From positions 1 through 53,737 of IMG/VR virus record IMGVR_UViG_3300017745_000008: DNA of 53,737 nt. One strand, given 5' to 3'. The position numbers were made by a program, and so were the translations under genes. The stretch comes from a virus. The notes under the pieces were generated by a model that searched no databases, was not told the origin of the DNA, and saw only the letters and a program-made list of their open reading frames with translations. Below, one piece after another: positions 17,340 to 53,737 of this stretch. Position 1 is the first letter of the stretch; every line of letters starts with the position of its first letter.

Positions 17340-20300
17340 ATGGCTAATCCTGTAAACATTAATGTAGGCGCTATTCAGCGTCCTGGAGTGTTTGTTACTC
17401 AGTCATCGACTGGTGGATTACCTCAACCCATAGCTTCTCATGCTATTGGTTATATCTTTGGATCTACTCCTGTAGACCCATATGATACAAATCCCGTTGA
17501 CGAGTATTCAGCTCTCCCACCATATCAACCAACACAGATTGGTTCATTAGAAGATTTTGTTCAAAAAGCAGGCGGTACGCCATCTGCTTCGACTAACCCG
17601 CAATCAATGATCTCTTACGATTCCGTAAAGTCATTCTTTGAAAACGTGGGTGTGAACGGAATCCTCTATTATACCCGCGTAACCCCAACACCCGAGTCGA
17701 AGGTTGTTGTAAATAAAGGCGCTGGTTGGAATCTTTTTGCTTTAAAGATCGGCGATCGTTACTTTGGAGATAAATCCTTAGGTGTTAACGACTCGGACGG
17801 TGTTGCTATTAAAGTGATCACAACTACAGCTCTTGATGCTGACGACAACGCCTTTGATATCGTCGGCTACCTTGGCAAAACTGATCCTGATTTTAACACA
17901 TTCTATAAGATTGAGCAAGACGAAGTAGAAGCATCGAACGCAACTTTTAGAATTTATTCTAAAGACTCCCGCGTAATTCCAGCCATTCAAAGCTTTAAAG
18001 GATATAAAATCTCTGATACCGCTTATGCATCTCCTACGGATGCTGGTGTTGTTAGTCGTTATATCCCCGTTAAAGAACTCAACTTCCGTTGTGTTTCTAG
18101 AGACGTATCCACACAAGAGCCTATTCTCTTTGTATCTGGTGCCGCGATCGGAAACTTCTTAGGAGAAACTTCTAAGACCGTTAAAACAGATTCTTCGGCC
18201 GCCTTTACTGCCTCTACCGGAGTGGTAAAAGTTGCAGACATCGATGATCTTACGATCGGCGGTGTGGCTCTTGCTGCAGGCGACAAGATCGCATTTGAAG
18301 GAGCAGCTGGTGAACTTCCTACTGGAAATATCTTCTATAGCACAGTATATTCAGTATTAAGTGTAGATGCTGGCACTGACACCTTTATTATTAATAACGG
18401 ATCAAATGCGGCTCTTACATTTACCAGCAACGACTTAACGTCTGTAGTTACAGTTCGCAGACTTGCCTATGACCCTTCAGTTGCTGCTGATAACCAGCAA
18501 GCAATCGAGGACTTCCTGGTTGACCAAGAAGTATATGCTTCTGCTTCTGCCATCCCTGATGACAAAATCGTTGCAATTTCAACAGACGAAAGAGTTGGAA
18601 AAGACGATCATGTTCGTTGGGCCGATGCTGCCGCTGCTTACTATCAGTGGAACGCTTCTGGCCTTACCTTTACTCCTGGTGCTGATGGAACAGGTCTTAC
18701 TAAAATTCCTCAAGGAACAATTACTTCCGTTGGTGGCAACGTAAATAGACTTGGATATGTTCCTGACACTATTCAATCCTTCTACGTTAACATTGCTGGA
18801 GAAAACAGGGTAATCATTGCTAACGGCGCTACTCCTGCTGAGCTCACAGAGAGTGTTTCTTCTTCTATTAGAGAAATCCTTGAAGAGAAAGAGCTAGAAG
18901 CTTTCTATGATGTTGAGTCAGTTTTAGAAGACTACGAGACATCTCTTGGAACAAACCAATATGCTCCTAATAACGGCGAAGCAATTGGCGCTAGCTTAAG
19001 TGTAACAGGTGCTCCGGCACTTCGTCCTTCCAACGATGGAAAGGCACTTACAGGGGCCGTTTTAGTTACCTCTGGTTCTACAACTATCCAAGGATTTGTT
19101 TCTCCTCAGACAAGCAATAGCCAAACAGTTGAACTCTTGGCAAGCGGAGCTTTATTAGGTTCAGGCACGGAATTCCTTTCATCCATTGCCCCCGGATACA
19201 GAATCCTTATTGGATCTAACAGTTATGAAGTTGTTGAAGTTACTTCTAACACTCAGGCTATCGTAAGTAACCTTGCTGGAGCCACCGAAAATAGTAGTTC
19301 ATCTTGGAGCGTTGTATCTACAAGATTTACTGAAGACTTATATGCTGGATCCTATGTTGTTATCAACGGATACAGATTTGAAGTTGCCAGTGTGACTAAT
19401 GACGCAGCTTTCGTAGTAACGACCGCTCCTGCATTCACTGCTAGCTCTACCACAGTCTTCCTAGACAGTTCTATCGCCAACGGATTCTATCGTCACGATT
19501 ATGTTCTTAAGGTAAAGATTACATCTAAAAATGGTATTCCTTCCCCTGTTGTTGCTGGTCTTGACCGCTATGGCAAAAAGGATTCTAACGTTTCAAGAGT
19601 TAACTCTTTGAGTGAAGCTGCTGACTTTGTTAACTACAAACTCTCGGCAAAAGCGCGCTCTCAAGACTTTGTGTACGCTATTGAGCAAGGTATGGGATCA
19701 GGCGATTATCGCCCCGGATTCTTACTTGCACCTGAAGCGTTCGGTTCATTCAAAGCCACTGCAGGCGGAATGACTAAAACTCAAGCTCGTGAGGAAAGAG
19801 TAAAAGTTACCCAATCATTACTCAGAGCTGCCGAAGGTAAGCTTGGAGAAGTTGAGGGTATCTCTGGAACTCAGCATATCGCTCTCATTGATTGCGGAGC
19901 TGATGAACTCAGTCTTAGCGAAGTGCAAGATGAGCTTGCCTTTGTTAAAGGAGCCGCCGGCGTACCTTTTGGTCACGGTGCTTTCTACGCTCCTTACATT
20001 AAAAACTCAAGCGGACGTTTTGTGCCGCCTAGTAGCTTTATTGCCGGTATTGCCTGTTCTCGTTATGTGAACGAAGGCTTCCAGCAAGCACCTGCAGGAG
20101 CAAGATATCCACTAAGAGGAGCCACTGGCCTCCGCTTTGATATCACGGCTCAGCAACAAGAAGTTACTTATCCTTTAGGCCTCAATCCAATTAGGAGCCT
20201 TCCTAATAGAGGAATTGTTGCTTGGGGTGCTCGTACAATGAGCTCCAATGCGCTCTTTAAGTTTGTCAACACACGTGCGATTCTAAACGTACTTCTTGAC

Positions 20301-20660
20301 ATACTTGCAAGAAGCTTTGATGATGTTCTTTTTGAGCAAATTGACTCTGCTGGTACACTTTACGCTAGGGCCAAGTCTATCGCCTCTCAGGTAATGGGAC
20401 AACTCTATCGCCAAGGTGCACTCTTTGGAGCTAGACCAGAACAAGCTTACTTAGTTGTTTGTTCTGATGCTAATAACGCTGTTAGTGATCTAGAAAACGG
20501 AACGTTAAGACTCGATGCTTATGTGGCTACTTCGCCAACTCTTGAGCGTCTTCTTGTTACCGTTGTAAGAACACCTGCTGGTCAGGTTGCTCAGGTACAA
20601 GATGCCTTCTCTAGAAATGTTGACAGATTCGATTACTTACTTAACGCAACTACGGTCTAA
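17340..20660 (+). CDS. Contractile tail sheath protein
   Basis: 1106 residues, the subunit whose contraction drives the tube through the cell envelope. The N-terminal GAIQRPGVFVTQSSTGG and the C-terminal landmarks PLRGATGLRFDITAQQQE, LPNRGIVAWGARTMSS, FKFVNTRAILNVLLDIL, and the last domain (GQLYRQGALFGARPEQAY, then RLLVTVVRTPAGQVAQVQ) are characteristic of myovirus sheath proteins. It is much longer than T4 gp18 (659 residues); the extra length lies in beta-rich Ser/Thr segments in the middle, probably domains exposed on the sheath surface. It shows that the phage is a myovirus. Confidence 0.93.
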   Translation: MANPVNINVGAIQRPGVFVTQSSTGGLPQPIASHAIGYIFGSTPVDPYDTNPVDEYSALPPYQPTQIGSLEDFVQKAGGTPSASTNPQSMISYDSVKSFFENVGVNGILYYTRVTPTPESKVVVNKGAGWNLFALKIGDRYFGDKSLGVNDSDGVAIKVITTTALDADDNAFDIVGYLGKTDPDFNTFYKIEQDEVEASNATFRIYSKDSRVIPAIQSFKGYKISDTAYASPTDAGVVSRYIPVKELNFRCVSRDVSTQEPILFVSGAAIGNFLGETSKTVKTDSSAAFTASTGVVKVADIDDLTIGGVALAAGDKIAFEGAAGELPTGNIFYSTVYSVLSVDAGTDTFIINNGSNAALTFTSNDLTSVVTVRRLAYDPSVAADNQQAIEDFLVDQEVYASASAIPDDKIVAISTDERVGKDDHVRWADAAAAYYQWNASGLTFTPGADGTGLTKIPQGTITSVGGNVNRLGYVPDTIQSFYVNIAGENRVIIANGATPAELTESVSSSIREILEEKELEAFYDVESVLEDYETSLGTNQYAPNNGEAIGASLSVTGAPALRPSNDGKALTGAVLVTSGSTTIQGFVSPQTSNSQTVELLASGALLGSGTEFLSSIAPGYRILIGSNSYEVVEVTSNTQAIVSNLAGATENSSSSWSVVSTRFTEDLYAGSYVVINGYRFEVASVTNDAAFVVTTAPAFTASSTTVFLDSSIANGFYRHDYVLKVKITSKNGIPSPVVAGLDRYGKKDSNVSRVNSLSEAADFVNYKLSAKARSQDFVYAIEQGMGSGDYRPGFLLAPEAFGSFKATAGGMTKTQAREERVKVTQSLLRAAEGKLGEVEGISGTQHIALIDCGADELSLSEVQDELAFVKGAAGVPFGHGAFYAPYIKNSSGRFVPPSSFIAGIACSRYVNEGFQQAPAGARYPLRGATGLRFDITAQQQEVTYPLGLNPIRSLPNRGIVAWGARTMSSNALFKFVNTRAILNVLLDILARSFDDVLFEQIDSAGTLYARAKSIASQVMGQLYRQGALFGARPEQAYLVVCSDANNAVSDLENGTLRLDAYVATSPTLERLLVTVVRTPAGQVAQVQDAFSRNVDRFDYLLNATTV

Positions 20661-20669
20661 TAATTAAAA

Positions 20670-22562
20670 ATGTCTAATAATAAGGAGCAAATTTTAAACG
20701 CTAAAGGGCCACTTTCTTCTCAACAGCCCAAAAAGGCCGTGCACATCGAAATGTTCAGGGCTGGTCCTCAGATCAGTTCCGCCGGGCAAAAAATGATGTT
20801 CACTGAGGAGGATTTGGACCAGGTGGTCGGTACTTACGTTCCTGGCCAACATGAAGCTCCGTTAATTATTGGGCACGATCAAACGGACTCTACACCTGCG
20901 TTAGGGTGGGTAAAAAATCTTTGGAGAAAAGGTAAAGCATTATGGGGTAACGTCGAACTTACCCCTAAGGCTGAAAAACTGATTAAAGATGGAGTGTTCA
21001 AGAAAGTAAGTAGTTCTTTCTACTTACCAGACGCGGAAACAAATCCGCACCCTGGAAAATTGGCGCTCCGCCATCTTGGATTAGTTTCGATTCCCGCCGT
21101 AAAGGGACTCACTGCTTTTTCCGAAGGTGAATTTAACGACGAAAAAATTATCAATTTAGCTCCTGAAGAGGGAGAAACCGTTATTTCGTTTAAAGAAGCC
21201 TTAGAAACAAACAACTCTACTATGACTAGAAAAAGAAAAACTGCTGACGAGGTTCAGGAGGTCTCAGTAGATCAGAGTGTTGATCATGCTGAGGGTGGAA
21301 TGACCGTCAATATCAACATAGGAGGCGGTAAGCCTTCTGTATATGACGACTCTGGTAACCAGGTCGATGAAACAGGCGCTCCAGCCGACTACAAGATGGA
21401 GTACGCCTCCGACGAAGAAACAGATGAAGAAATGGCCCCTGAAGCCGATGCTGAAGCCCTTGAAGGTGAAGGTGAAGGCGACGACATGGGTCTAGAGGAC
21501 GAGGGTGGTGAAGAGGCACCTGAGGCTCCTGAAGAAGAGGGAGAAGCACCTGCTGAAGAAGTCGGTGAAGAAGAGATGGATTCCGAGGGAGAAGGCGATG
21601 AGCCTGCTAAAGAGGACGGCGCGGAAGATATTTCTGGCGAGATGGAAAATGACGATAAGAAAATTGCCTCTCTAGCTGCCGAATACGACGAAGACGAGCT
21701 CTTCCAAGCATTGGCTCTCAAGAAACAAGCTACCTCCATGATGGAGAAAGATATGTCCTACGGCGAAATGCCCGAAGGCCTTAAAAAGCACATGGAAGAG
21801 AAAGAGGGTAAAGAGGAAGGAGACGACGAAGAGAAGAAAGAAGAAGTCAGTGACAACGCCGAAGAGGTAGTTGATAATGCTGAAGAAACTTCTGAAAAAG
21901 AAGAGGAAAAGAAAGAGAAAGAAGAAGAGACTGAAGCCAAGGCTGATATGGCCGAGGATGAGAAAGAAGAGGACGAAGACGAAGAAAAGAAAACTGACAT
22001 GTCCGAAGAGGTTAAAGAAGAAAAGAAAGAAGAGTCAGCCGACCACGCTGAAGAAGCTGCACCTGTGGCTACCGAATCTCTAGACCATGGCGAATCCGCC
22101 ATTGGAGATCAGAGTGTTGACAACCTCAACGCTCGTGTAGCCGAACTCGAGGAAGAGCTTAATAAGCAAAGAAAGCTAGCTCGCGAGAAAGAAATTTCTT
22201 CGTTTGCTGAAGGACTCTATGAGTCTGGTAAGCTTACCGAACAAGTTGTACCTAAGGGTGACCTTGTTCGTTTCATGGAGACTCCTAACCATAAGAACTC
22301 TGTGAATTTCTCGGAGACCGGAAAGGCATCTCAATTTGACTTCATGCGTGGAGTTCTTGATTCCTTACCATCTATGGTCTCGTTTGAAGAGTTTGCAACA
22401 CCAACTTCAGCGCCTCAAAAGTCGAAGTCGGTTGAGCCCAACGCTTCTGGATACGCTTACGATCCAAACACCGCTCACGTTCATTCGGAGGCATTATCTT
22501 ATGCTGAAGAGAACGACTGCGATTACTTAACAGCTGTTAAGTTTGTTATTAACAACAACTAA
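20670..22562 (+). CDS. Prohead protease/scaffold fusion, Mu gpI-like
   Basis: 630 residues. The first about 190 residues match the Mu I-type head maturation protease: VHIEMFRAGPQISSAGQKM, FTEEDLDQVVGTY, HEAPLIIGHDQTDSTPALGWVKNL, GVFKKVSSSFYLPD. The middle (about 240-480) is extremely acidic, with runs of Glu/Asp/Lys and low complexity, acting as scaffold. The C-terminal helix (NLNARVAELEEELNKQRKLAREKE) and the last segment resemble the scaffold tail that contacts the capsid. As in Mu, protease and scaffold are one polypeptide. It sits between sheath and decoration/capsid genes. No separate internal scaffold start was identified with certainty. Confidence 0.88.
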   Translation: MSNNKEQILNAKGPLSSQQPKKAVHIEMFRAGPQISSAGQKMMFTEEDLDQVVGTYVPGQHEAPLIIGHDQTDSTPALGWVKNLWRKGKALWGNVELTPKAEKLIKDGVFKKVSSSFYLPDAETNPHPGKLALRHLGLVSIPAVKGLTAFSEGEFNDEKIINLAPEEGETVISFKEALETNNSTMTRKRKTADEVQEVSVDQSVDHAEGGMTVNINIGGGKPSVYDDSGNQVDETGAPADYKMEYASDEETDEEMAPEADAEALEGEGEGDDMGLEDEGGEEAPEAPEEEGEAPAEEVGEEEMDSEGEGDEPAKEDGAEDISGEMENDDKKIASLAAEYDEDELFQALALKKQATSMMEKDMSYGEMPEGLKKHMEEKEGKEEGDDEEKKEEVSDNAEEVVDNAEETSEKEEEKKEKEEETEAKADMAEDEKEEDEDEEKKTDMSEEVKEEKKEESADHAEEAAPVATESLDHGESAIGDQSVDNLNARVAELEEELNKQRKLAREKEISSFAEGLYESGKLTEQVVPKGDLVRFMETPNHKNSVNFSETGKASQFDFMRGVLDSLPSMVSFEEFATPTSAPQKSKSVEPNASGYAYDPNTAHVHSEALSYAEENDCDYLTAVKFVINNN

Positions 22563-22573
22563 GGTAAATACTA

Positions 22574-23074
22574 ATGGCAACAGACCCCCGCTATATGTCT
22601 TTTGACCACCAGTATGTCGAAACTGTATCGACCAGCGCCACAATTGCTGCTCACCGTTTCGTAACTCGTGCTGGTGCATACCCCGCCGCTGATGGCGATT
22701 TCGCCTCTGGCGTTACTATTTTTGATGCTCCTGGTCAAGGTCAACTGACCGCTAAGGGCTATCAAGTCAATGATGGATCTACTCTCGTCTATGAGGGTCA
22801 GCTTAACCCATCCACAACTCCTGCTAAGCCTGGAGTGTTTCCATACCAAGGCCTCCTTTCTGTAGTAACAGAAGGAATCGTTATTGTAGAGGTTGACGCC
22901 ACTTCTGGTGCAATCGCTGTTGATGCCGCCGTATACGCGTCCGACTCCGGAGAAGCTCTTGCTTCTGGTGGTGGCGGTACAAACTTCATTCTTGGTCGAG
23001 CTCTTGACACTGCCGCTGGTACTACAGCCGGTCAGTTTATCAGAGTTAAGCTAGGTTCTGAAGGCGCTTCTTGA
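22574..23074 (+). CDS. Capsid decoration protein, DUF2190-like
   Basis: 166 residues. Ala/Gly/Thr-rich beta protein with a pattern typical of small head-stabilising proteins: TSATIAAHRFVTRAG, LLSVVTEGIVIVEVDATSGAIAVDAAVYASDSG, ILGRALDTAAGTTAGQFIRVKL. These strings are the hallmark of DUF2190 proteins, which lie next to the capsid gene in many phages. Located between protease and major capsid genes. Confidence 0.85.
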   Translation: MATDPRYMSFDHQYVETVSTSATIAAHRFVTRAGAYPAADGDFASGVTIFDAPGQGQLTAKGYQVNDGSTLVYEGQLNPSTTPAKPGVFPYQGLLSVVTEGIVIVEVDATSGAIAVDAAVYASDSGEALASGGGGTNFILGRALDTAAGTTAGQFIRVKLGSEGAS

Positions 23075-23098
23075 TAAAATAAGGAGAATTTTAAAATC

Positions 23099-24079
23099 AT
23101 GATGAATCTAGATCAAGTACGCGTAATCGATCCTATTCTTACGCAACTCGCCCAAGGCTACAAAAACGCTGAAGGCGTGGCTACATTCTTCGGTCCAGCG
23201 GTATCTATGAATACACGTGCTGGCCGTACACTCGTATTCGGCAAGGAAGCCTTTGCCGCTCAGAATTTCCTCCGCGCTCCTGGAACTAACATCCAGAAGA
23301 TCCAGAACGAGTTCGGAACCAGAAGCTTCTCGCTCCGTCAAGAAGCTATCAGCTGGGAAATCGCTGAGGAAATCGCAGCAGAAGCCAAGAATGGCGCTGC
23401 TCAGCTTGACCTTCGTCAGTACGCTGCTAAGGACGCTGCAAATCGTCTTATGCAGTCCTGGGAGATCACCGTTGCAACTGCTGTCCAAGACGACACTCTT
23501 TATGAAGCAGACAACGTATTTGACCTTGCTACTCGCGCCTCTGGTGCAGACAAGTTCAATGCTGCTACTTCTGACATCGAGGTTCTAATTGACGAAGCTA
23601 AGGAAGCTGTTCGCGCTCAGATCGGTACCTATCCTAATAAGATGGTTATCTCCCCTGACGCTTTCAACGCCCTCAAGCGTAACAAGAGAATCAGAGACTT
23701 CATGCAGCGTGGCGTTCTCGTCAACGAAGCAACTCTCGCCAACATCTTTGGCCTTGACGAGATTCGTGTTGCACGTCGTCTTAAGCTTAACCAGTCCACT
23801 GGTTCACTTGAGAACATCTATAGCAACATTGCTGTTCTCTTCTACCAGCCTTCTGGTGCTACCGATGGTTTTGCTCCCGCTCTGGATGCAAACTACGGTA
23901 ACCCTGCTTTCGGATACACCTACACTCTTGCTGGTTATCCTATTGCTACTCCTGAGCGTTTCAACATCGAGCGCCGCGTATTCACCGGTGACATCCTTGT
24001 CGAGCGTTCCTTCGAGCTAGTCGGCATGGGCGAAAACGGTAAAGTTGGTGCTGGCGCTATTCTTAAGAACTGCGTCTGA
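23099..24079 (+). CDS. Major capsid protein, Mu gpT-like
   Basis: 326 residues, forming the icosahedral shell (HK97 fold by family). Landmarks: GVATFFGPAVSMNTRAGRT, FGTRSFSLRQEAISWEIAEE, AAKDAANRLMQSWEITVA, YPNKMVISPDAFNALKRNKRIRD, LANIFGLDEIRVARRL, and the end VFTGDILVERSFELVGMG. It is preceded by a good Shine-Dalgarno (AAGGAG) and followed by the strongest terminator in the window, both expected for the most abundant virion protein. No N-terminal prodomain, as in Mu-type capsids with an external protease/scaffold. Codon use is richer in GC-ending codons than its neighbours, consistent with high expression. Confidence 0.9.
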   Translation: MMNLDQVRVIDPILTQLAQGYKNAEGVATFFGPAVSMNTRAGRTLVFGKEAFAAQNFLRAPGTNIQKIQNEFGTRSFSLRQEAISWEIAEEIAAEAKNGAAQLDLRQYAAKDAANRLMQSWEITVATAVQDDTLYEADNVFDLATRASGADKFNAATSDIEVLIDEAKEAVRAQIGTYPNKMVISPDAFNALKRNKRIRDFMQRGVLVNEATLANIFGLDEIRVARRLKLNQSTGSLENIYSNIAVLFYQPSGATDGFAPALDANYGNPAFGYTYTLAGYPIATPERFNIERRVFTGDILVERSFELVGMGENGKVGAGAILKNCV

Positions 24080-24104
24080 TCAATCGTTAAAAACTTGATA
24101 AACT

Positions 24105-24130
24105 GGCTGGCCTTCGGGTCGGCCCTTTTT
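24105..24130 (+). terminator. Rho-independent terminator after the capsid gene
   Basis: An 8-bp stem (GGCTGGCC/GGTCGGCC, two G-U pairs) closed by the stable TTCG tetraloop and followed by CTTTTT. It ends the protease-decoration-capsid transcript and is followed at once by a GTTTAAAG motif for the next operon. Confidence 0.93.
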
Positions 24131-24138
24131 GTTTAAAG
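24131..24138 (+). promoter_or_regulatory. GTTTAAAG motif (candidate late promoter) after the terminator
   Basis: It begins directly after the U-tract of the terminator and 24 bases before the next ATG. A transcriptional restart exactly here would be required for the neck genes. Confidence 0.55.
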
Positions 24139-24161
24139 TAAAACAGAAGAAAATATGATCT

Positions 24162-24959
24162 ATGTCAGGTCCTCAACCACCTAGAGATATACACGGAGCC
24201 GCGAATAATTGCTCGCCCGCCACAGTGGATTATTTTATTTCTGTGTTTGGTTTTCAAGAAGCTGTAGAGCTATCTAACATTGAAGATCCAACTGGAAACA
24301 ATATTGATGTTACTAAGATTCAATTAGCCTTAAATGACGCAGGTCAGCTAATTAACAATTATATAGATAGCGCCCCACCGCAAGGAAAAGTCTTAATTGC
24401 CGGTTCTTATAGAAGAACTCAAGCAACAATTGCTAGGTACTATCTAGATGTATTAAGACCACGTACTCAAGTCCAAGAGGCGTCAGAAAAAGCCCTCCAG
24501 CAACTAGAGATGTGGGCCGCTAAAGGCAGCCCAAGTACTGGGTTTAAATGGCAAGAAGCTTATGCTTACTGGAGATCTGGTTGCTCGATGACAAAAAGCT
24601 CCTATCAGAGAGGAAGAAGCTTCACCGATCCTTCTCTTAATAAGTGGGTACTTCGTGAAGGAAGTAACGACCGTGGATTCCCGTTCGCGAATAGAGAAGC
24701 TGTTGTACTCAATAGAAACTCAGATAAAAGCCTTGCTTTAGAAACCCAAGGGGTTAAAGAAGTTATTCCAGACAGCGCATATGAAATGAATGAGCTCGTA
24801 GATGCTCTTGAGTCTACAAGAGGCCTTTCTAGTTTTACAAATACAGACCAAGCTACAAGTCCTGCAGAAGGAGACGGCTTAGTTGCAAATAATGACACCG
24901 CTTCCGCCGACGGTGAGTTCGATAACTATGGCGGATTAACTACTAACGATACGTTCTAA
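24162..24959 (+). CDS. Head-tail connector, Mu gp36 / DUF1320-like
   Basis: 265 residues. The N-terminal half fits DUF1320: SPATVDYFISVFGFQEAVELS, IQLALNDAGQLINNYIDS, RRTQATIARYYLDVLRPR and ALQQLEMWAAKGSP, the same order of helices as in Mu gp36, which lies next to the capsid gene. The C-terminal 110 residues are a Ser/Asn-rich extension not seen in Mu. Probably an adaptor between portal and tail. Confidence 0.75.
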   Translation: MSGPQPPRDIHGAANNCSPATVDYFISVFGFQEAVELSNIEDPTGNNIDVTKIQLALNDAGQLINNYIDSAPPQGKVLIAGSYRRTQATIARYYLDVLRPRTQVQEASEKALQQLEMWAAKGSPSTGFKWQEAYAYWRSGCSMTKSSYQRGRSFTDPSLNKWVLREGSNDRGFPFANREAVVLNRNSDKSLALETQGVKEVIPDSAYEMNELVDALESTRGLSSFTNTDQATSPAEGDGLVANNDTASADGEFDNYGGLTTNDTF

Positions 24960-25285
24960 TGGCCACTAACTCATATAAAGGATACAACCCATTTTATCCA
25001 ACAAATGCTGGAGGCGGAGCATTTTATCTAACAAATAACGACGCCGGAAACTGCTACGGGTATAGAACCGGCCTTAAAAGTGCTGTTTTTCCTGATGGCA
25101 CAAAATATAAAGAAGACGCTGATGCCCTTCGTCAATATATTATAGAGCTTGAATCTACAAGAAAATTACAGGATCTTGTAAACGTAGAGTTTTCTAGAGA
25201 TGTTAAAAAAGGTGATTTTTTGGTGTATGATAACACTAAAGGAAAATGGGTGCTTACAGATTTTCTATCCGGCGGTGAGTTCTGA
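24959..25285 (+). CDS. Small neck-region structural protein
   Basis: 108 residues, with an Asn/Gly/Tyr-rich start (NPFYPTNAGGGAFYLTNNDAGN) and a C-terminal beta part (RDVKKGDFLVYDNTKGKWVLTD). Its start overlaps the preceding stop as TAATG and its stop overlaps the next start as TGATG, so all three neck genes are coupled. The position suggests a head completion or connector protein; no family recognised. Confidence 0.65.
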   Translation: MATNSYKGYNPFYPTNAGGGAFYLTNNDAGNCYGYRTGLKSAVFPDGTKYKEDADALRQYIIELESTRKLQDLVNVEFSRDVKKGDFLVYDNTKGKWVLTDFLSGGEF

Positions 25286-33213: not shown

Positions 33214-33642
33214 TTACTTGGATTCTTTGTATTCAGAGAAAGAGGCGTACCCTCTTAGTTTTACCAATTGGTCATAAGCACCGCCACCCTTTTCTATTTT
33301 AGTCCCTCCATCATAACACCATGCGAAGCCATCTTCAACAATTTTTTTGTTAAAACATTCTTCACCTTTGTAAAACCAGCCGAGCATACGGCCGTATTTT
33401 CCGTCCTTTTCGGTCCTTACTTCAATCTCCTTAGGGTCGCAACCAAACCAGTTTTCTGCATATTCAGTTGCATCTAACCCTAGGAGCTTCTCGTCTTTGT
33501 CTCTAGTGCGTTTTTCTGGAGTATCGATCCCAGCAATCCTACAACGTTCTTTTTTATATAGACCAAATCCTAGATCAAGGATAACATCAACAGTATCTCC
33601 GTCGACTACTCTAGCTACTTCTTTAATTCTGTATTCGTACAT
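33214..33642 (-). CDS. Thermonuclease-family (SNase) nuclease
   Basis: 142 residues, one OB-fold SNase domain. Motifs: VVDGDTVDVILDLGFG with the metal-binding Asp, RIAGIDTPE (catalytic Arg, second Asp, Glu), and KDGKYGRMLGWF with the second catalytic Arg. No signal peptide, so probably cytoplasmic, where it could help degrade host DNA. The start overlaps the small upstream gene by 28 bases; the stop is two bases before the cp12 ATG. Confidence 0.88.
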   Translation of the reverse strand: MYEYRIKEVARVVDGDTVDVILDLGFGLYKKERCRIAGIDTPEKRTRDKDEKLLGLDATEYAENWFGCDPKEIEVRTEKDGKYGRMLGWFYKGEECFNKKIVEDGFAWCYDGGTKIEKGGGAYDQLVKLRGYASFSEYKESK

Positions 33643-35746: not shown

Positions 35747-35775
35747 ATTATACCAGAAAAGGCCTAGGCTGTCAA
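35747..35775 (-). promoter_or_regulatory. Perfect sigma-70 promoter upstream of tRNA-Leu(UAG)
   Basis: Minus strand TTGACA (35770-35775), 17 bases, TATAAT (35747-35752), with an added TGG before the -10 (extended -10). The TAG stop of the upstream membrane-protein gene directly precedes the -35. Confidence 0.9.
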
Positions 35776-43829: not shown

Positions 43830-43855
43830 AAAAAAAGAGGGCCGAATGGACCCTC
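43830..43855 (-). terminator. Rho-independent terminator after the beta-barrel gene
   Basis: Minus strand stem GAGGGTC/GGCCCTC (one G-U pair, five-base loop) followed by TTTTTTT, ending right at the next gene's ATG. Confidence 0.87.
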
Positions 43856-43880
43856 AGAATAACTAAGTTATTTATTTAGC

Positions 43881-44252
43881 TCAGAAGCTGTACTTCAAGC
43901 CAAGCTTAGCGCCGTATCCACGGTCAAGATCTGCGTCTCCAGAACCAACAAAGCTAATTTCGCCGTAAGCTCCAAGACCGTCGGTCAAAGCAACACCAGC
44001 ACCTGCCTTACCAGAGGGAACAGTATCAGTCTCGCCACCGTCAGGTGAAAGCAAAGTTGCGCCGCCTTGAACGTAGTAGGAAGCAGAACCACCAAGGTCT
44101 CCTTCGTAGCCAACGTGAAGATCGGTGTTTGTACCGCCGTACTCAGAACCGGTCCAACCGGCGTTTGCTTCAACGTTAACATAGGGACCTGCGAAAGCAG
44201 CACCAGCGGACATGGACAAAGCAGCAGCTGCTGCGAATACAGATTTAATCAT
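43881..44252 (-). CDS. Exported beta-barrel-like protein
   Basis: 123 residues with a signal peptide (IKSVFAAAAALSMSAGAAFA, cleavage before GPYVN). The mature part has amphipathic beta strands and Gly/Asp turns (YVNVEANAGWTGSEYG, LHVGYEGDLGGSASYYVQGG) and ends LGLKYSF with a C-terminal Phe, as in outer-membrane barrels. Too short for a full porin by itself; it may form an oligomeric or eight-strand barrel. I believe similar proteins occur in other cyanophages. It has its own perfect promoter, a structured leader and a terminator: a strongly expressed single gene. Confidence 0.78.
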   Translation of the reverse strand: MIKSVFAAAAALSMSAGAAFAGPYVNVEANAGWTGSEYGGTNTDLHVGYEGDLGGSASYYVQGGATLLSPDGGETDTVPSGKAGAGVALTDGLGAYGEISFVGSGDADLDRGYGAKLGLKYSF

Positions 44253-44362
44253 AATAATTTAAGTAGTATCTCGGAAGGAATTAATTATTTCCTTGAGGAT
44301 GGAAGAGATCTCGACATGATCTCTTGTGGAAGTTGTTACTCTGTGTAAAGGAAGCTTGCCAC
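44253..44362 (-). promoter_or_regulatory. Structured 5' leader of the beta-barrel gene
   Basis: The about 110-base leader can form two hairpins on the minus strand: AAGAGATC/GATCTCTT with a seven-base loop (around 44305-44330) and AAGGAA/TTCCTT (around 44275-44297), the second ending close to the start region. It may set RNA stability or translation. Confidence 0.5.
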
Positions 44363-44368
44363 TAGTAT

Positions 44369-44397
44369 ATTATAAACTGATTCTGCTGGTTTGTCAA
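44369..44397 (-). promoter_or_regulatory. Perfect sigma-70 promoter for the beta-barrel gene
   Basis: Minus strand TTGACA (44392-44397), 17 bases, TATAAT (44369-44374). The TGA stop codon of the kinase gene is inside the -35. Confidence 0.9.
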
Positions 44398-50098: not shown

Positions 50099-50122
50099 AA
50101 AAAAGAGGACCGCTACGGTCCT
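50099..50122 (-). terminator. Rho-independent terminator after the purine gene cluster
   Basis: Minus strand perfect 7-bp stem AGGACCG/CGGTCCT with a three-base loop, followed by CTTTTTT. Confidence 0.9.
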
Positions 50123-50148
50123 TTAATCTAAATTCTTAACTTTAACAT

Positions 50149-50442
50149 TTACAAGGTCCTTTCTAGTCGATTTGTTGCTTGGTCGGGGAAGTCTCTAGGT
50201 CGACTATCACCGGCATTATCGGTTCTAGCAGAACCTTCATTTGCTTTCATTGTGTGCTGAAAATTTGCTCTTTTATATCTCAGACCAAGCGGATCAGGCA
50301 TCCAATATGTTACTTGCCAGTCTTGTTCTGGACATAACTCAAGATGTTTTTCTACAGAGTGGTTGAAAATGCCCATTTGAACGTGGCCGTCGTGAGTAAC
50401 ACATCTGCCGAATCCGATGTCGACTAGGAAAAGCATTTTCAT
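50149..50442 (-). CDS. Unknown protein coupled to purM
   Basis: 97 residues: MKMLFLVDIGFGRCVTHDGH, then LELCPEQDWQVTYWMPDPLG and a basic, Asn/Asp-rich end. The ATG overlaps the purM stop (ATGA). No family recognised. Confidence 0.6.
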   Translation of the reverse strand: MKMLFLVDIGFGRCVTHDGHVQMGIFNHSVEKHLELCPEQDWQVTYWMPDPLGLRYKRANFQHTMKANEGSARTDNAGDSRPRDFPDQATNRLERTL

Positions 50443-51368
50443 TTAACCTCGCCGATCACCCAAGACCGCATGCCAAACGGCGTATCAGCAATCACCTCCT
50501 GCGTGAGTTGAACAGCATCTCTAGGCACAACTAAGCAAAATCCTATGCCGAGGTTAAATACATTTCTCATTTCTTCTTCCGCTATGTCTCCAGCCTCTTG
50601 AATCTTATTGAAGAGTTCTGGTCTCTCCCAGGAGTTGTAGTCTACATCAACAGTCATACCTTTAGGGAGACACCTAGGAAGGTTTTCAGGTATACCGCCA
50701 CCAGTGATATGTGACATACCTAGAATAGGAACCACATCTAACAGATCCTGAATTAGTGGAGAATAGATGGTGGTTGGAACTATCAACTCTGGCATCAACG
50801 AATAATAGATAAGTTTTTTCCATATCATATCATTAATCAGTGTGTATCCATTACTATGAAGTCCGCTACTCTCAATACCAATGACTACATCACCAGGTCT
50901 GATGTTACTACCGTCAACAATCTGATTCTTCTCTACAACACCAGTACAGAATCCAGCAAGGTCATAGTCAGTTGCTCTAAAATGTTCGGCAGTTTCTCCA
51001 CCTAGTAGTTCCATTCCAGCCATCGCACATCCAGTAGCAACTCCATGCACAATGTCAGTGACATTAGCATCTAGTGTTTTGGTTGAGATATAATCTAGAA
51101 AATATAATGGTTTAGCGCCAGAACATATAACGTCATTGACGCACATAGCAACGAGATCCTGACCAATAGTGGTGTAATCATTAGCAATCCTACAAATGTT
51201 AATTTTAGTACCGACGCCATCAGCACCAGATACCAGCACAGGTTTCTCGTATCCTGATGGGATCTCCATCATTCCATTGAACCCACCAATACTAGGTGCT
51301 AATGCTTTGAGATATTCTACAAAGGATCTACCTTTGATAATGTCAACACCAGAAGTTTTGTAGTCCAT
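50439..51368 (-). CDS. purM: Phosphoribosylaminoimidazole (AIR) synthetase
   Basis: 309 residues. It closes FGAM to AIR in purine synthesis with ATP. Family marks: MDYKTSGVDIIKG at the start, VLVSGADGVGTKI, GQDLVAMCVNDVICSGAKPLYFLDY, ELLGGETAEH, GDVVIGIESSGLHSNGYTL and HITGGGIPENLPR. Somewhat shorter than the 345-residue bacterial enzyme. Works in one pathway with PurS and PurC of this cluster. Confidence 0.96.
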   Translation of the reverse strand: MDYKTSGVDIIKGRSFVEYLKALAPSIGGFNGMMEIPSGYEKPVLVSGADGVGTKINICRIANDYTTIGQDLVAMCVNDVICSGAKPLYFLDYISTKTLDANVTDIVHGVATGCAMAGMELLGGETAEHFRATDYDLAGFCTGVVEKNQIVDGSNIRPGDVVIGIESSGLHSNGYTLINDMIWKKLIYYSLMPELIVPTTIYSPLIQDLLDVVPILGMSHITGGGIPENLPRCLPKGMTVDVDYNSWERPELFNKIQEAGDIAEEEMRNVFNLGIGFCLVVPRDAVQLTQEVIADTPFGMRSWVIGEVK

Positions 51369-51538
51369 TAATCTCTCCCTAAACGAATGTACAATGTGAT
51401 GAGTGATTGTGAGATTAGATCACAAGAATATGTAAATCCTTGTTTGTTTTCTTCATCCCAGTGTTCTCTTTGACTTTTAAGAATAGCAGAAAACTCTTTA
51501 ATCTTAGACCTCATCTCTTCTTTTGTCAACTTATCCAA
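51368..51538 (-). CDS. Small helical protein between purM and the 90-residue gene
   Basis: 56 residues from a TTG start preceded by a strong Shine-Dalgarno (AAAGGAG, six bases before); a GTG nine codons earlier would give 65 residues. Helical (KEEMRSKIKEFSAILKSQRE). The stop overlaps the purM ATG by one base. Unknown. Confidence 0.55.
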   Translation of the reverse strand: MDKLTKEEMRSKIKEFSAILKSQREHWDEENKQGFTYSCDLISQSLITLYIRLGRD

Positions 51539-51803
51539 TGATTTCTCCTTTAGCAATTTGTTCACGACGTTTTAGTTTCCATACGATGTAATCCATTGTA
51601 GGGATACACATGGGATTCCAACCAACAAAGGTAGTTGATTCTCCACTAGGTATCTTCCAACACTCAGCATTATCATTCTCAAGGTCTAATGACTTACGAT
51701 ACTCATCCTCACCAAACATAACAACAGCACGTTCTGCTTGGTTCAAACTTCTAAAGCAATCGAAACCAAGTTTTCTAATCTCATCAGGGACGTGGTGTTT
51801 CAT
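51531..51803 (-). CDS. Unknown 90-residue protein downstream of purC
   Basis: MKHHVPDEIRKLGFDCFRSL, AVVMFGEDEYRKSLDLEND, ECWKIPSGESTTFVGWNPM. Soluble, no motif. Overlaps the purC stop by four bases. Unknown. Confidence 0.6.
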   Translation of the reverse strand: MKHHVPDEIRKLGFDCFRSLNQAERAVVMFGEDEYRKSLDLENDNAECWKIPSGESTTFVGWNPMCIPTMDYIVWKLKRREQIAKGEIIG

Positions 51804-52498
51804 TGAATAGCAAGTGGTTGTAGTTTATCAAGGATTTGACGATAGGCAGGCACAATATCACCTTCATCCTTTCGGAATAGATCCTTATCGAATCTTTCGT
51901 TACTACCAATCTTCCATAGTCTCATACTATCAGGACTAATCTCATCAGCAAGTAGCAACTCACCGTGAGCAGTATAACCATACTCAACTTTAAAATCTAC
52001 AAGATCAATACCCATGATGTAGAACATCTGTCGAAGATAATCGTTAATCCGTAGCGTCATCTCAATAAAGGGCTCGGGATCATATCCCATCAGACGCACC
52101 CGATCTTTAGTGAGAAGTGGATCTTGCTTGCTATCATCTTTAAGAAAAAACTCAACGATAGGAAAAGGTAGCGAATAACCCTCTTTAAGAGTTGTCTCGC
52201 GAACAATAGATCCAGCAGCCCGGTTTCTACAAATAACTTCTAAGGGAACAATATCTACCTTCTTACAGATCATCTTGTTAGCGCCAACCATATTAATGTA
52301 ATGAGTTGGGATATTGTCTTTAGCAAGTTTCTCAAAAATAACGGACGAGATGCTACAACAAAGAGACCCTTTTCCTAAAGGATGGTCTTCCTTCTCTCCA
52401 TTACCAGCAGTCACTTTATCATGATACTCAATGATGACACGATCAGCATCATCACCAGCGTATACAGTTTTGACCTTGCCTTCTACAATTACTTCCAT
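51800..52498 (-). CDS. purC: SAICAR synthetase
   Basis: 232 residues. It joins aspartate to CAIR with ATP in purine synthesis. Marks: VIVEGKVKTVYAGDD, ITVTAGNGEK-like KVTAGNGEKEDHPLGKG, VICRNRAAGSIVRE, FFLKDDSKQDPLLT, LVDFKVEYG and LLADEISPDSMRLW. Length matches the family. The stop overlaps the next gene by four bases. Confidence 0.96.
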   Translation of the reverse strand: MEVIVEGKVKTVYAGDDADRVIIEYHDKVTAGNGEKEDHPLGKGSLCCSISSVIFEKLAKDNIPTHYINMVGANKMICKKVDIVPLEVICRNRAAGSIVRETTLKEGYSLPFPIVEFFLKDDSKQDPLLTKDRVRLMGYDPEPFIEMTLRINDYLRQMFYIMGIDLVDFKVEYGYTAHGELLLADEISPDSMRLWKIGSNERFDKDLFRKDEGDIVPAYRQILDKLQPLAIQ

Positions 52499-52692
52499 CA
52501 GTCATCCTCCATTTTATATGTAATAGTAATTTGATTATACACTTCGTCTCTATTGTCACTGTTGTATACATGGCAGCGTTCTACCTTAGCATCTAACAAT
52601 TTTTCTATATTTTTAAGTTGCCATTCAGCGGCATACTTATTAAACCCATCGTTCATCCAACTCTTATTAGATCCTGGTGTGTTAAATTCCAT
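52498..52692 (-). CDS. Unknown 64-residue protein between purS and purC
   Basis: MEFNTPGSNKSWMNDGFNKY, then a beta end (NQITITYKMEDD). Coupled by one-base overlaps at both ends with purS and purC. Unknown. Confidence 0.6.
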   Translation of the reverse strand: MEFNTPGSNKSWMNDGFNKYAAEWQLKNIEKLLDAKVERCHVYNSDNRDEVYNQITITYKMEDD

Positions 52693-52967
52693 TATTCAAT
52701 ACCTGGTGGGAAGGCTTCAATCTCTGATAATTCGTAGTCCCAGTCTTCCATAACAACATTCGCGTAGAGACGATCAGAAAGGGTTTCAATTTCTTTTTCT
52801 GCATACTCCCTGCTTGGAGCTTCTAACCAAACATCAATTACTTTGCCTAGCCTAAGCTTTTTAATGTCTAGCTCGGACAACCGCTTAGAGGCGTCTCTTA
52901 CGGCATTGCCAGGAGAATCATCCACCTGAGATCTGAGACGGATGAATATTAATGCTTTAAATCTCAT
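52692..52967 (-). CDS. purS: FGAM synthase small subunit
   Basis: 91 residues. PurS is needed with PurL and PurQ to make FGAM. Marks: FKALIFIRLRSQVDDSPGNAV, LRLGKVIDVWLEA, AEKEIETLSDRLYANVVMEDWDYEL. It has a perfect promoter and is the first gene of the purine operon in the window. Confidence 0.9.
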   Translation of the reverse strand: MRFKALIFIRLRSQVDDSPGNAVRDASKRLSELDIKKLRLGKVIDVWLEAPSREYAEKEIETLSDRLYANVVMEDWDYELSEIEAFPPGIE

Positions 52968-52990
52968 CTGGGTTTACTTAACATATAACG

Positions 52991-53019
52991 ATTATACAAT
53001 AAAAAACCACCCCTGTCAA
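52991..53019 (-). promoter_or_regulatory. Perfect sigma-70 promoter for the purine operon, inside the psbD terminator
   Basis: Minus strand TTGACA (53014-53019), 17 bases, TATAAT (52991-52996). The TTGACA is exactly the loop of the psbD terminator hairpin, and the T-run is in the spacer. Confidence 0.88.
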
Positions 53020-53026
53020 GAGGTGG
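52999..53026 (-). terminator. Rho-independent terminator after psbD
   Basis: Minus strand 7-bp stem CCACCTC/GGGGTGG (one G-U pair), loop TTGACA, then TTTTTT. The loop is also the -35 of the next promoter. Confidence 0.87.
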
Positions 53027-53046
53027 TGGACGGTTTAGGAAGTGGT

Positions 53047-53737
53047 TTAGAGTGCGTTACCTCTCGGAAGAACTTCCTCTGGAAATACAAACCGTTCATG
53101 GGGTTGGTCAACAGGTGCCAACCAAGCACGTAGTCCCTCGTTTAATAATATGTTCTTTGTATAGAACGTTTCAAACTCAGGATCTTCTGCTGCTCTAATC
53201 TCTTGACTCACAAAATCATAAGCACGAAGATTAAGAGCAAGCCCAATGATCCCAATAGAAGAGACCCAAAGACCCATGACAGGAACAAACAGCATAAAGA
53301 AGTGCAACCAACGCTTATTGCTAAACGCAACCCCGAAGATCTGCGACCAAAAACGGTTCGCAGTAACCATCGAGTAGGTCTCCTCCTCCTGAGTGGAATC
53401 GAACGCTTTAAATGTGTTTGCTTGATCGCCATCTTCATACAATGTGTTCTCTACTGTGACACCATGGATAGCGCTGAGTAGCGCTCCTCCTAGTATACCA
53501 GCAACTCCCATCATATGGAACGGGTTGAGCGTCCAGTTGTGGAAACCCTGTAGGAAGAGTAGGAACCTAAAGATCGCTGCAACGCCAAACGACGGCGCAA
53601 AGAACCAACTGGATTGTCCGAGAGGATAGATGAGAAACACACTGACAAAAACAGCGATAGGCCCAGAGAACGCAATAGCATTATACGGACGAATTCCAAT
53701 TAACCTAGCCAACTCGAACTGACGAAGCATGAAGCCA
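53047..53737 (-). CDS. psbD: Photosystem II D2 reaction-centre protein, C-terminal two thirds
   Basis: The gene runs off the right edge; about 230 codons are visible, ending in the conserved [16 protein letters not shown]2 pairs with D1 to form the PSII reaction centre. Marks: [94 protein letters not shown]. It keeps photosynthetic electron transport going while host synthesis falls. Near-host sequence; GC content is higher than in neighbouring phage genes, typical of host-derived psbD. Confidence 0.98.

Follow-up and report, generated by a model that had tools for sequence, protein, structure and literature searches.

A predicted nested terminator-promoter element at the left boundary of a cyanophage purine island

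The junction between psbD and purS

The window, by which we mean the whole 53,737-nucleotide stretch of viral DNA analysed here, carries at one end the 3′ part of psbD (53047..53737, minus strand), encoding a PsbD-family protein (Photo_RC, 2.5e-52), followed on the same strand by purS (52692..52967; Pfam PurS, 4e-16), a pairing that a first-pass annotation had assigned and that these domain matches uphold. The psbD stop directly adjoins a 37-base element (minus strand, 53027-52991), the window reading TAA and then ACCACTTCC..., and purS is the first gene downstream of this element, which in full reads 5′-ACCACCTCT TGAC AGGGGTGGT TTTTT A TTG TATAAT-3′. Its 5′ portion, ACCACCTCT-TGAC-AGGGGTGGT (53006..53027), forms a putative terminator hairpin of 9 bp, including one G-T and a closing T-A pair, with the left arm at 53027-53019, the loop at 53018-53015 and the right arm at 53014-53006, and is followed on its 3′ side by a T-run (U-tract; 53001..53006). 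The hairpin loop holds a -35 box, TTGACA (53014..53019), and the 17-nt spacer (52997..53013) that separates it from the -10 box, TATAAT (52991..52996), is composed of the right arm (GGGGTGG), the T-run and ATTG. The first-pass annotation had placed TATAAT exactly 17 bases after TTGACA, with the right arm and T-run inside the spacer, and both statements can be read directly from the bases (53019-53014 and 52996-52991). Its further claim that TTGACA is the terminator loop needs refinement: the -35 box does sit in the loop, but the T and the A at its two ends can pair with each other and so close the stem, leaving TGAC as the strict loop.

Terminator and promoter scans converged on the same bases of the minus strand (53027-52991). 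The element heads the terminator list for the last 13.7 kb of the window (9 pairs, 5 of them G-C), its GC-rich hairpin with a U-tract directly 3′ has the sequence form of an intrinsic terminator, and its promoter agrees with the sigma-70 consensus (TTGACA, 16-18 nt spacer, TATAAT) at 12/12 positions with a 17-nt spacer. Accordingly positioned 3′ and 5′ RNA ends are predicted at ~52999-53003 for the upstream transcript and, from the location of the -10 box, at 52984 (+/- 2 nt) for the purine transcript, whose leader would span ~17 nt and contain no hairpin. Comparison with the known structured RNA families of Rfam 15, using covariance models, gave no match near the gathering score, and a known RNA family for the element was dropped from consideration.

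The window has four perfect TTGACA-N17-TATAAT sites, each of them on the minus strand, versus none for the reversed control pattern; when one mismatch is tolerated the number rises to 6, versus 0.46 expected, a count reached in 0 of 100 shuffles. The hairpin has a folding energy of -12.8 kcal/mol as RNA (RNAfold), and the stability of the hairpin region alone is mildly above that of shuffles (z = -1.0). The significance of the element derives from conservation and co-location, not from fold energy.

Two other perfect promoters of the window have features of their own. One (35747-35775, minus strand) is surrounded by a weaker hairpin around its TTGACA (TCTAG-TTGACAGC-CTAGG, then CCTTTT) and lies between the stop of an ORF, which it closely follows, and a tRNA-Leu gene immediately downstream, in a tRNA region common to S-TIM5-like phages. 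The other (44397-44369, at the head of a minus-strand segment spanning 43837-44397) lies upstream of the gene for a 123-aa, apparently secreted, porin-like protein (MIKSVFAAAAALSMSAGAAFAGPYVNVEANAGW...), which is followed by a strong terminator (43855-43837).

The purine island and its changing neighbours

Similarity between the window and S-TIM5 covers psbD to 53051 and resumes at 50129, and the block between has no counterpart there; no PurS match was found in S-TIM5. This purine island (50130..53046, minus strand) contains the composite element, purS, a small ORF, purC, two small ORFs, purM and a further small ORF. Homology to the T4-like phages S-CAM8 and ACG-2014b begins at exactly 53046, and the segment 53046-50445 is homologous to T4-like cyanophages. 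Past the other end of the island, in a stretch common to S-TIM5, lies a terminator-like hairpin (AGGACCG-TAG-CGGTCCT plus a T-run; 50106..50122, minus strand) that would end the purine unit. Judged from these alignments, the element marks the left edge of a purine island of 2.9 kb (purS to purM) relative to S-TIM5, and the stretch that begins with the composite, contains purS, purC and purM and finishes at the 50122-50106 terminator reads as a complete transcription unit. The structural genes of the window (17400-25200) match only five S-TIM5-like records (Aurunvirus), at ~77% identity, and the best matches of its 40-48 kb region are also to S-TIM5-like phages; a T4-like nature of the window was rejected, its backbone being S-TIM5-like. 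L009/L282 is identical to the window at the psbD-composite junction, which is therefore not an error of a single assembly.

The gene upstream of the element varies. In L008 and L281, which are closest to the window, psbD is set apart from the element by ~0.84 kb that contains small genes. Elsewhere, the element sits between a hypothetical gene and purS (S-CAM8, ACG-2014b), purC (S-CAM4) or nrdC (the nrdC region of ACG-2014h), between psbD and GC684 (Syn1) or a hypothetical gene (S-CAM9, with a degraded -35 box), upstream of hli03 and downstream of GC355 (S-PM2) or a 2OG-Fe(II) oxygenase gene (Syn1), and, in S-SSM5, both between gp23 and a hypothetical gene and between GC622 and a helicase gene; regA is also among the genes that such elements follow. 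Given the intervening 0.84 kb in L008/L281 and the other upstream genes elsewhere, a psbD-specific terminator was rejected. The first-pass proposal that the same bases end the psbD transcript and start the purine transcript survives in that they read as both an intrinsic terminator and a consensus sigma-70 promoter, and fails in its designation of a specifically psbD terminator: psbD is a lineage-specific neighbour, and left boundary of the purine island is the better description. At several junctions a structural or photosynthesis gene lies upstream and a small or early-type gene downstream, and the element borders may separate late from early transcription.

A small Cys-rich ORF (RGCCGAGCPDCPFRP), which in L008/L281 is 40 aa long and belongs to the additional ~0.84 kb, and which has a weak DUF5522 match below the cut-off, has its TGA stop inside the TTGACA of the composite, so that the same bases belong to a stop codon, a -35 box and a terminator loop. 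It is found at L008 2599-2721 (reverse strand), L281 1329-1451, L006 5305-5388, L005 5378-5500 and L010 1937-2020 (reverse strand).

Recurrence and conservation of the nested design

We scanned viral contigs with the pattern TTGACA-N7-T5-N5-TATAAT, which places a T-run in the spacer and contains no stem, so that sites were not selected for a hairpin, and scored a hairpin around TTGACA where a stem of ≥5 bp, ≥4 of them G-C, could form. Among the matches listed, 44 of 114 distinct viral sites carry such a hairpin and 70 lack one by this criterion, while re-dealing the left flanks among the 114 listed sites gave 6.3 hairpins on average and 12 at most. With the same pattern, bacterial and archaeal genomes yielded a hairpin in 2 of 119 sites among the matches listed (0.2 expected), most of these matches coming from Clostridia, which makes the viral/bacterial contrast indicative and not a census. 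Nested and non-nested viral promoters showed no difference in the orientation of the upstream gene.

In a whole-genome scan of 14 phages, using our own terminator and promoter criteria, nested elements were detected in Syn1 (3), S-SSM5 (4), S-PM2 (2), S-CAM7 (2), P-SSM2 (2) and S-CAM8 (1), that is, in six of the eight T4-like cyanophages scanned; the seventh, ACG-2014b, has an imperfect one, overlooked by the scan owing to a stem mismatch. Staphylococcus phage K has five by the same scan, and none was found in RB49, phi1, T4, KVP40, Syn9 or HTVC008M, nor in any Markov-shuffled genome. Several of the detected elements have promoters matching at 11-12/12 positions and some at 10/12, and not all will be real. 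Chance co-location of promoter and terminator was ruled out by the window shuffles, the viral T-run promoter set and the whole-genome scan taken together, and by these matches the nested design recurs between many different pairs of genes and in several lineages of phages.

Two other promoter layouts were encountered. In the first, which also recurs (L005:1261, L006:1078, L053, L058, L060, L066 and L068), a CTGGC(5-6 nt)CCAG inverted repeat directly precedes TTGACAC(C)..., and the spacer contains a T-run; this type lies one gene upstream of psbA in ACG-2014b and S-CAM8. In the second, the 17-nt spacer of a perfect sigma-70 promoter is itself a hairpin, as in TTGACA-GGGGATC-GGT-GATCCCC-TATAAT, with examples in RB49 (W04; 115005-115033 and 121708-121736) and Syn9 (W08; 18628-18656).

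At the purS boundary, relatives retain TTGACA, the U-tract and TATAAT or TATGAT, while the sequence of the stem varies, being CCACCTC/GGGGTGG in the window, AGCACTC/GGGTGCT in ACG-2014b and CCACCAC/GTGGTGG in L281. Across relatives, hairpin energies lie between -9 and -13 kcal/mol despite these differing sequences. Among 13 cassettes in the same register, 89% of stem cells are paired, versus 82% in shuffles and 44-59% when slid, and three stem pairs show changes on both sides (compensatory changes). The stem covariation score of 0.301, versus 0.163 for shuffles, was reached by 0 of 500 shuffles, which ignore kinship among the 13 sequences. The first-pass annotation had staked its reading on the loop TTGACA being kept in close relatives, and there the -35 box is indeed kept and changes in the stem are compensated.

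Conservation at purS does not extend far. Just five purS loci retain the element; in the 130 nt preceding purS, 35 loci have nothing that resembles a promoter, and among the remaining 41 most have weak sites only. At greater distance (PurS ~85-91% identical), the majority of loci lack the element upstream of purS, and an element tied to purS as such was rejected. This absence indicates that the element belongs to the boundary and not to purS, and that it is not required for purS expression, which fits a movable boundary.

Mechanism, alternatives and known systems

We consider a nested terminator-promoter boundary cassette, including the predicted termination and initiation, to be the best explanation of these observations and very probably the correct one. 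One 37-base element apparently ends the upstream message, here psbD, and starts the purine message, and it seems to be a compact and transferable border separating transcription units. Host RNA polymerase arriving from psbD would transcribe the hairpin and U-tract and be released at ~53000, and host sigma-70 holoenzyme would use the -35 box in the loop together with TATAAT to start the purine transcript at ~52984. A right arm of 7-8 nt, a U-tract of 5-7 nt and a further 3-4 nt make up the 17-bp sigma-70 spacer, so that a terminator with TTGACA in its loop becomes a promoter by gaining TATAAT alone; this geometry accounts for the recurrence of the nested form. A cassette of <40 bp would insulate an early-type unit, early timing being presumed, from upstream transcription, and would serve as a transferable left end for the purine island in an S-TIM5-like phage and for other modules in T4-like cyanophages.

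If this is true, phages possess a boundary of <40 bp at which one transcription unit stops and its successor begins, which would explain how host-derived islands (purine, psbD, hli) move between unrelated cyanophages and are still correctly expressed and insulated. It would also provide a readable mark of transcription-unit borders in phage metagenomes, where routine scans report the terminator and the promoter as two entries and overlook that they form one object, and would open to direct test the coupling of termination to initiation on a shared piece of DNA.

The element could instead be a promoter alone, with the dyad around its -35 box acting as a repressor or activator operator and no terminator being present. 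A dyad over the -35 box is a common operator layout and the CCACC/GGTGG stem is repeated across many cyanophages, but we regard this as very improbable: stems differ widely between phages while complementarity is kept, which argues against a fixed protein site, the T-run lies on the 3′ side only and in terminator register, and the S-SSM5 element directly follows gp23, a gene that is followed by a predicted terminator in other T4-like phages (PMC1524935). That the terminator alone matters, TTGACA-N17-TATAAT having arisen by accident in T-rich, AT-rich surroundings and purS being read from elsewhere, would agree with the more distant relatives in which purS has no promoter directly upstream; this seems scarcely credible given a 12/12 promoter at exact spacing, far above chance and kept while the stem changes, and given that several scanned nested elements match at 11-12/12 positions. 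The nested form might also be mainly a recombination site, whose short shared homology shuffles modules and for which regulation is secondary. Near-identical cassettes between unrelated genes, a window junction 27 nt upstream of the -35 box and the recombination between promoter-early stem-loops (PeSLs) proposed for T4-like phages in a passage of PMC4503421 that cites Arbiol 2010 and Comeau 2014 all speak for it; the shared stretch is, however, just ~35-45 bp, and covarying stems with conserved promoter boxes point to selection on regulatory function, making this reading rather unlikely.

Active coupling, in which psbD transcription sets purine expression, would add to the boundary cassette and not exclude it. 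Polymerase released at the U-tract might restart from the nested promoter (recycling), or that promoter might be occluded by transcription from upstream; by geometry, a polymerase that pauses on the U-tract would sit over the -10 box, and we speculate that termination and initiation thereby exclude each other in time. Single-molecule work has found that polymerase usually remains on DNA after termination and can restart, but the restarts are usually antisense (PMC6978322), and the change of upstream partner between phages speaks against a link specific to psbD and purS; we consider such coupling doubtful. Equally tentative is the broader proposal that loop-nested promoters are a general phage device, employed by several unrelated lineages and seldom seen in bacterial chromosomes, with right arm and U-tract forming the sigma-70 spacer and the shared bases making termination and initiation exclusive, so that upstream (late) transcription would silence the nested early promoter as a self-timed early-to-late switch without a regulator.

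Among known systems, the nearest are the PeSLs, reportedly composite promoter-terminator cassettes of T4-like phages that are linked to module shuffling. The element resembles them in combining an intrinsic terminator with a strong sigma-70 early promoter, in lying at the edges of variable modules, in being repeated per genome and in its association with module exchange. A hairpin with a strong sigma-70 promoter recurs as an intergenic unit at unrelated cyanophage junctions, and module breakpoints coincide with it, as the island starts at 53046 relative to both S-TIM5 and S-CAM8 and the 0.84-kb difference of L008/L281 joins at the cassette. The tandem order of hairpin, T-run and promoter seen in RB49/phi1 is absent from the element: there, by our measurements, the -35 box follows the loop centre by 26-29 or 40-44 nt, whereas in the window it lies in the loop, as it does in 13 of 35 nearby terminator-promoter pairs in cyanophages. 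The carrier phage also departs from the T4-like type, with S-TIM5-like (Aurunvirus) structural genes and an island related to T4-like cyanophages. Simple membership of the RB49-type PeSLs was rejected on layout, and the element is best read as working like a PeSL while differing from RB49-type PeSLs in layout, the layout being that measured in the RB49/phi1 genomes.

A likeness in layout outside cyanophages is seen in kayviruses, phage K showing the same nested arrangement, although phage K and fRuSau02 belong to an unrelated family (Herelleviridae) with a staphylococcal host. Two of phage K's five nested elements are identical in sequence and probably represent a single site present in both terminal repeats, and ~8 tandem elements occur beside the nested ones. 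In the GenBank record of fRuSau02, an annotated promoter (33413-33441) overlaps a terminator (33416-33459), and promoter/terminator overlap is thus already recorded in a kayvirus annotation; the portions of the kayvirus literature available to us list promoters and terminators, and a discussion of their overlap was not found in those portions. The purine island is also reminiscent of the morons of lambdoid phages, inserted genes with their own promoter and terminator (PMC1524935), in being an inserted transcription unit that would run from its own promoter to a terminator. It differs from them in being multi-gene, metabolic and phage-derived, and in that its incoming boundary would also end the upstream transcript, in the promoter's own bases.
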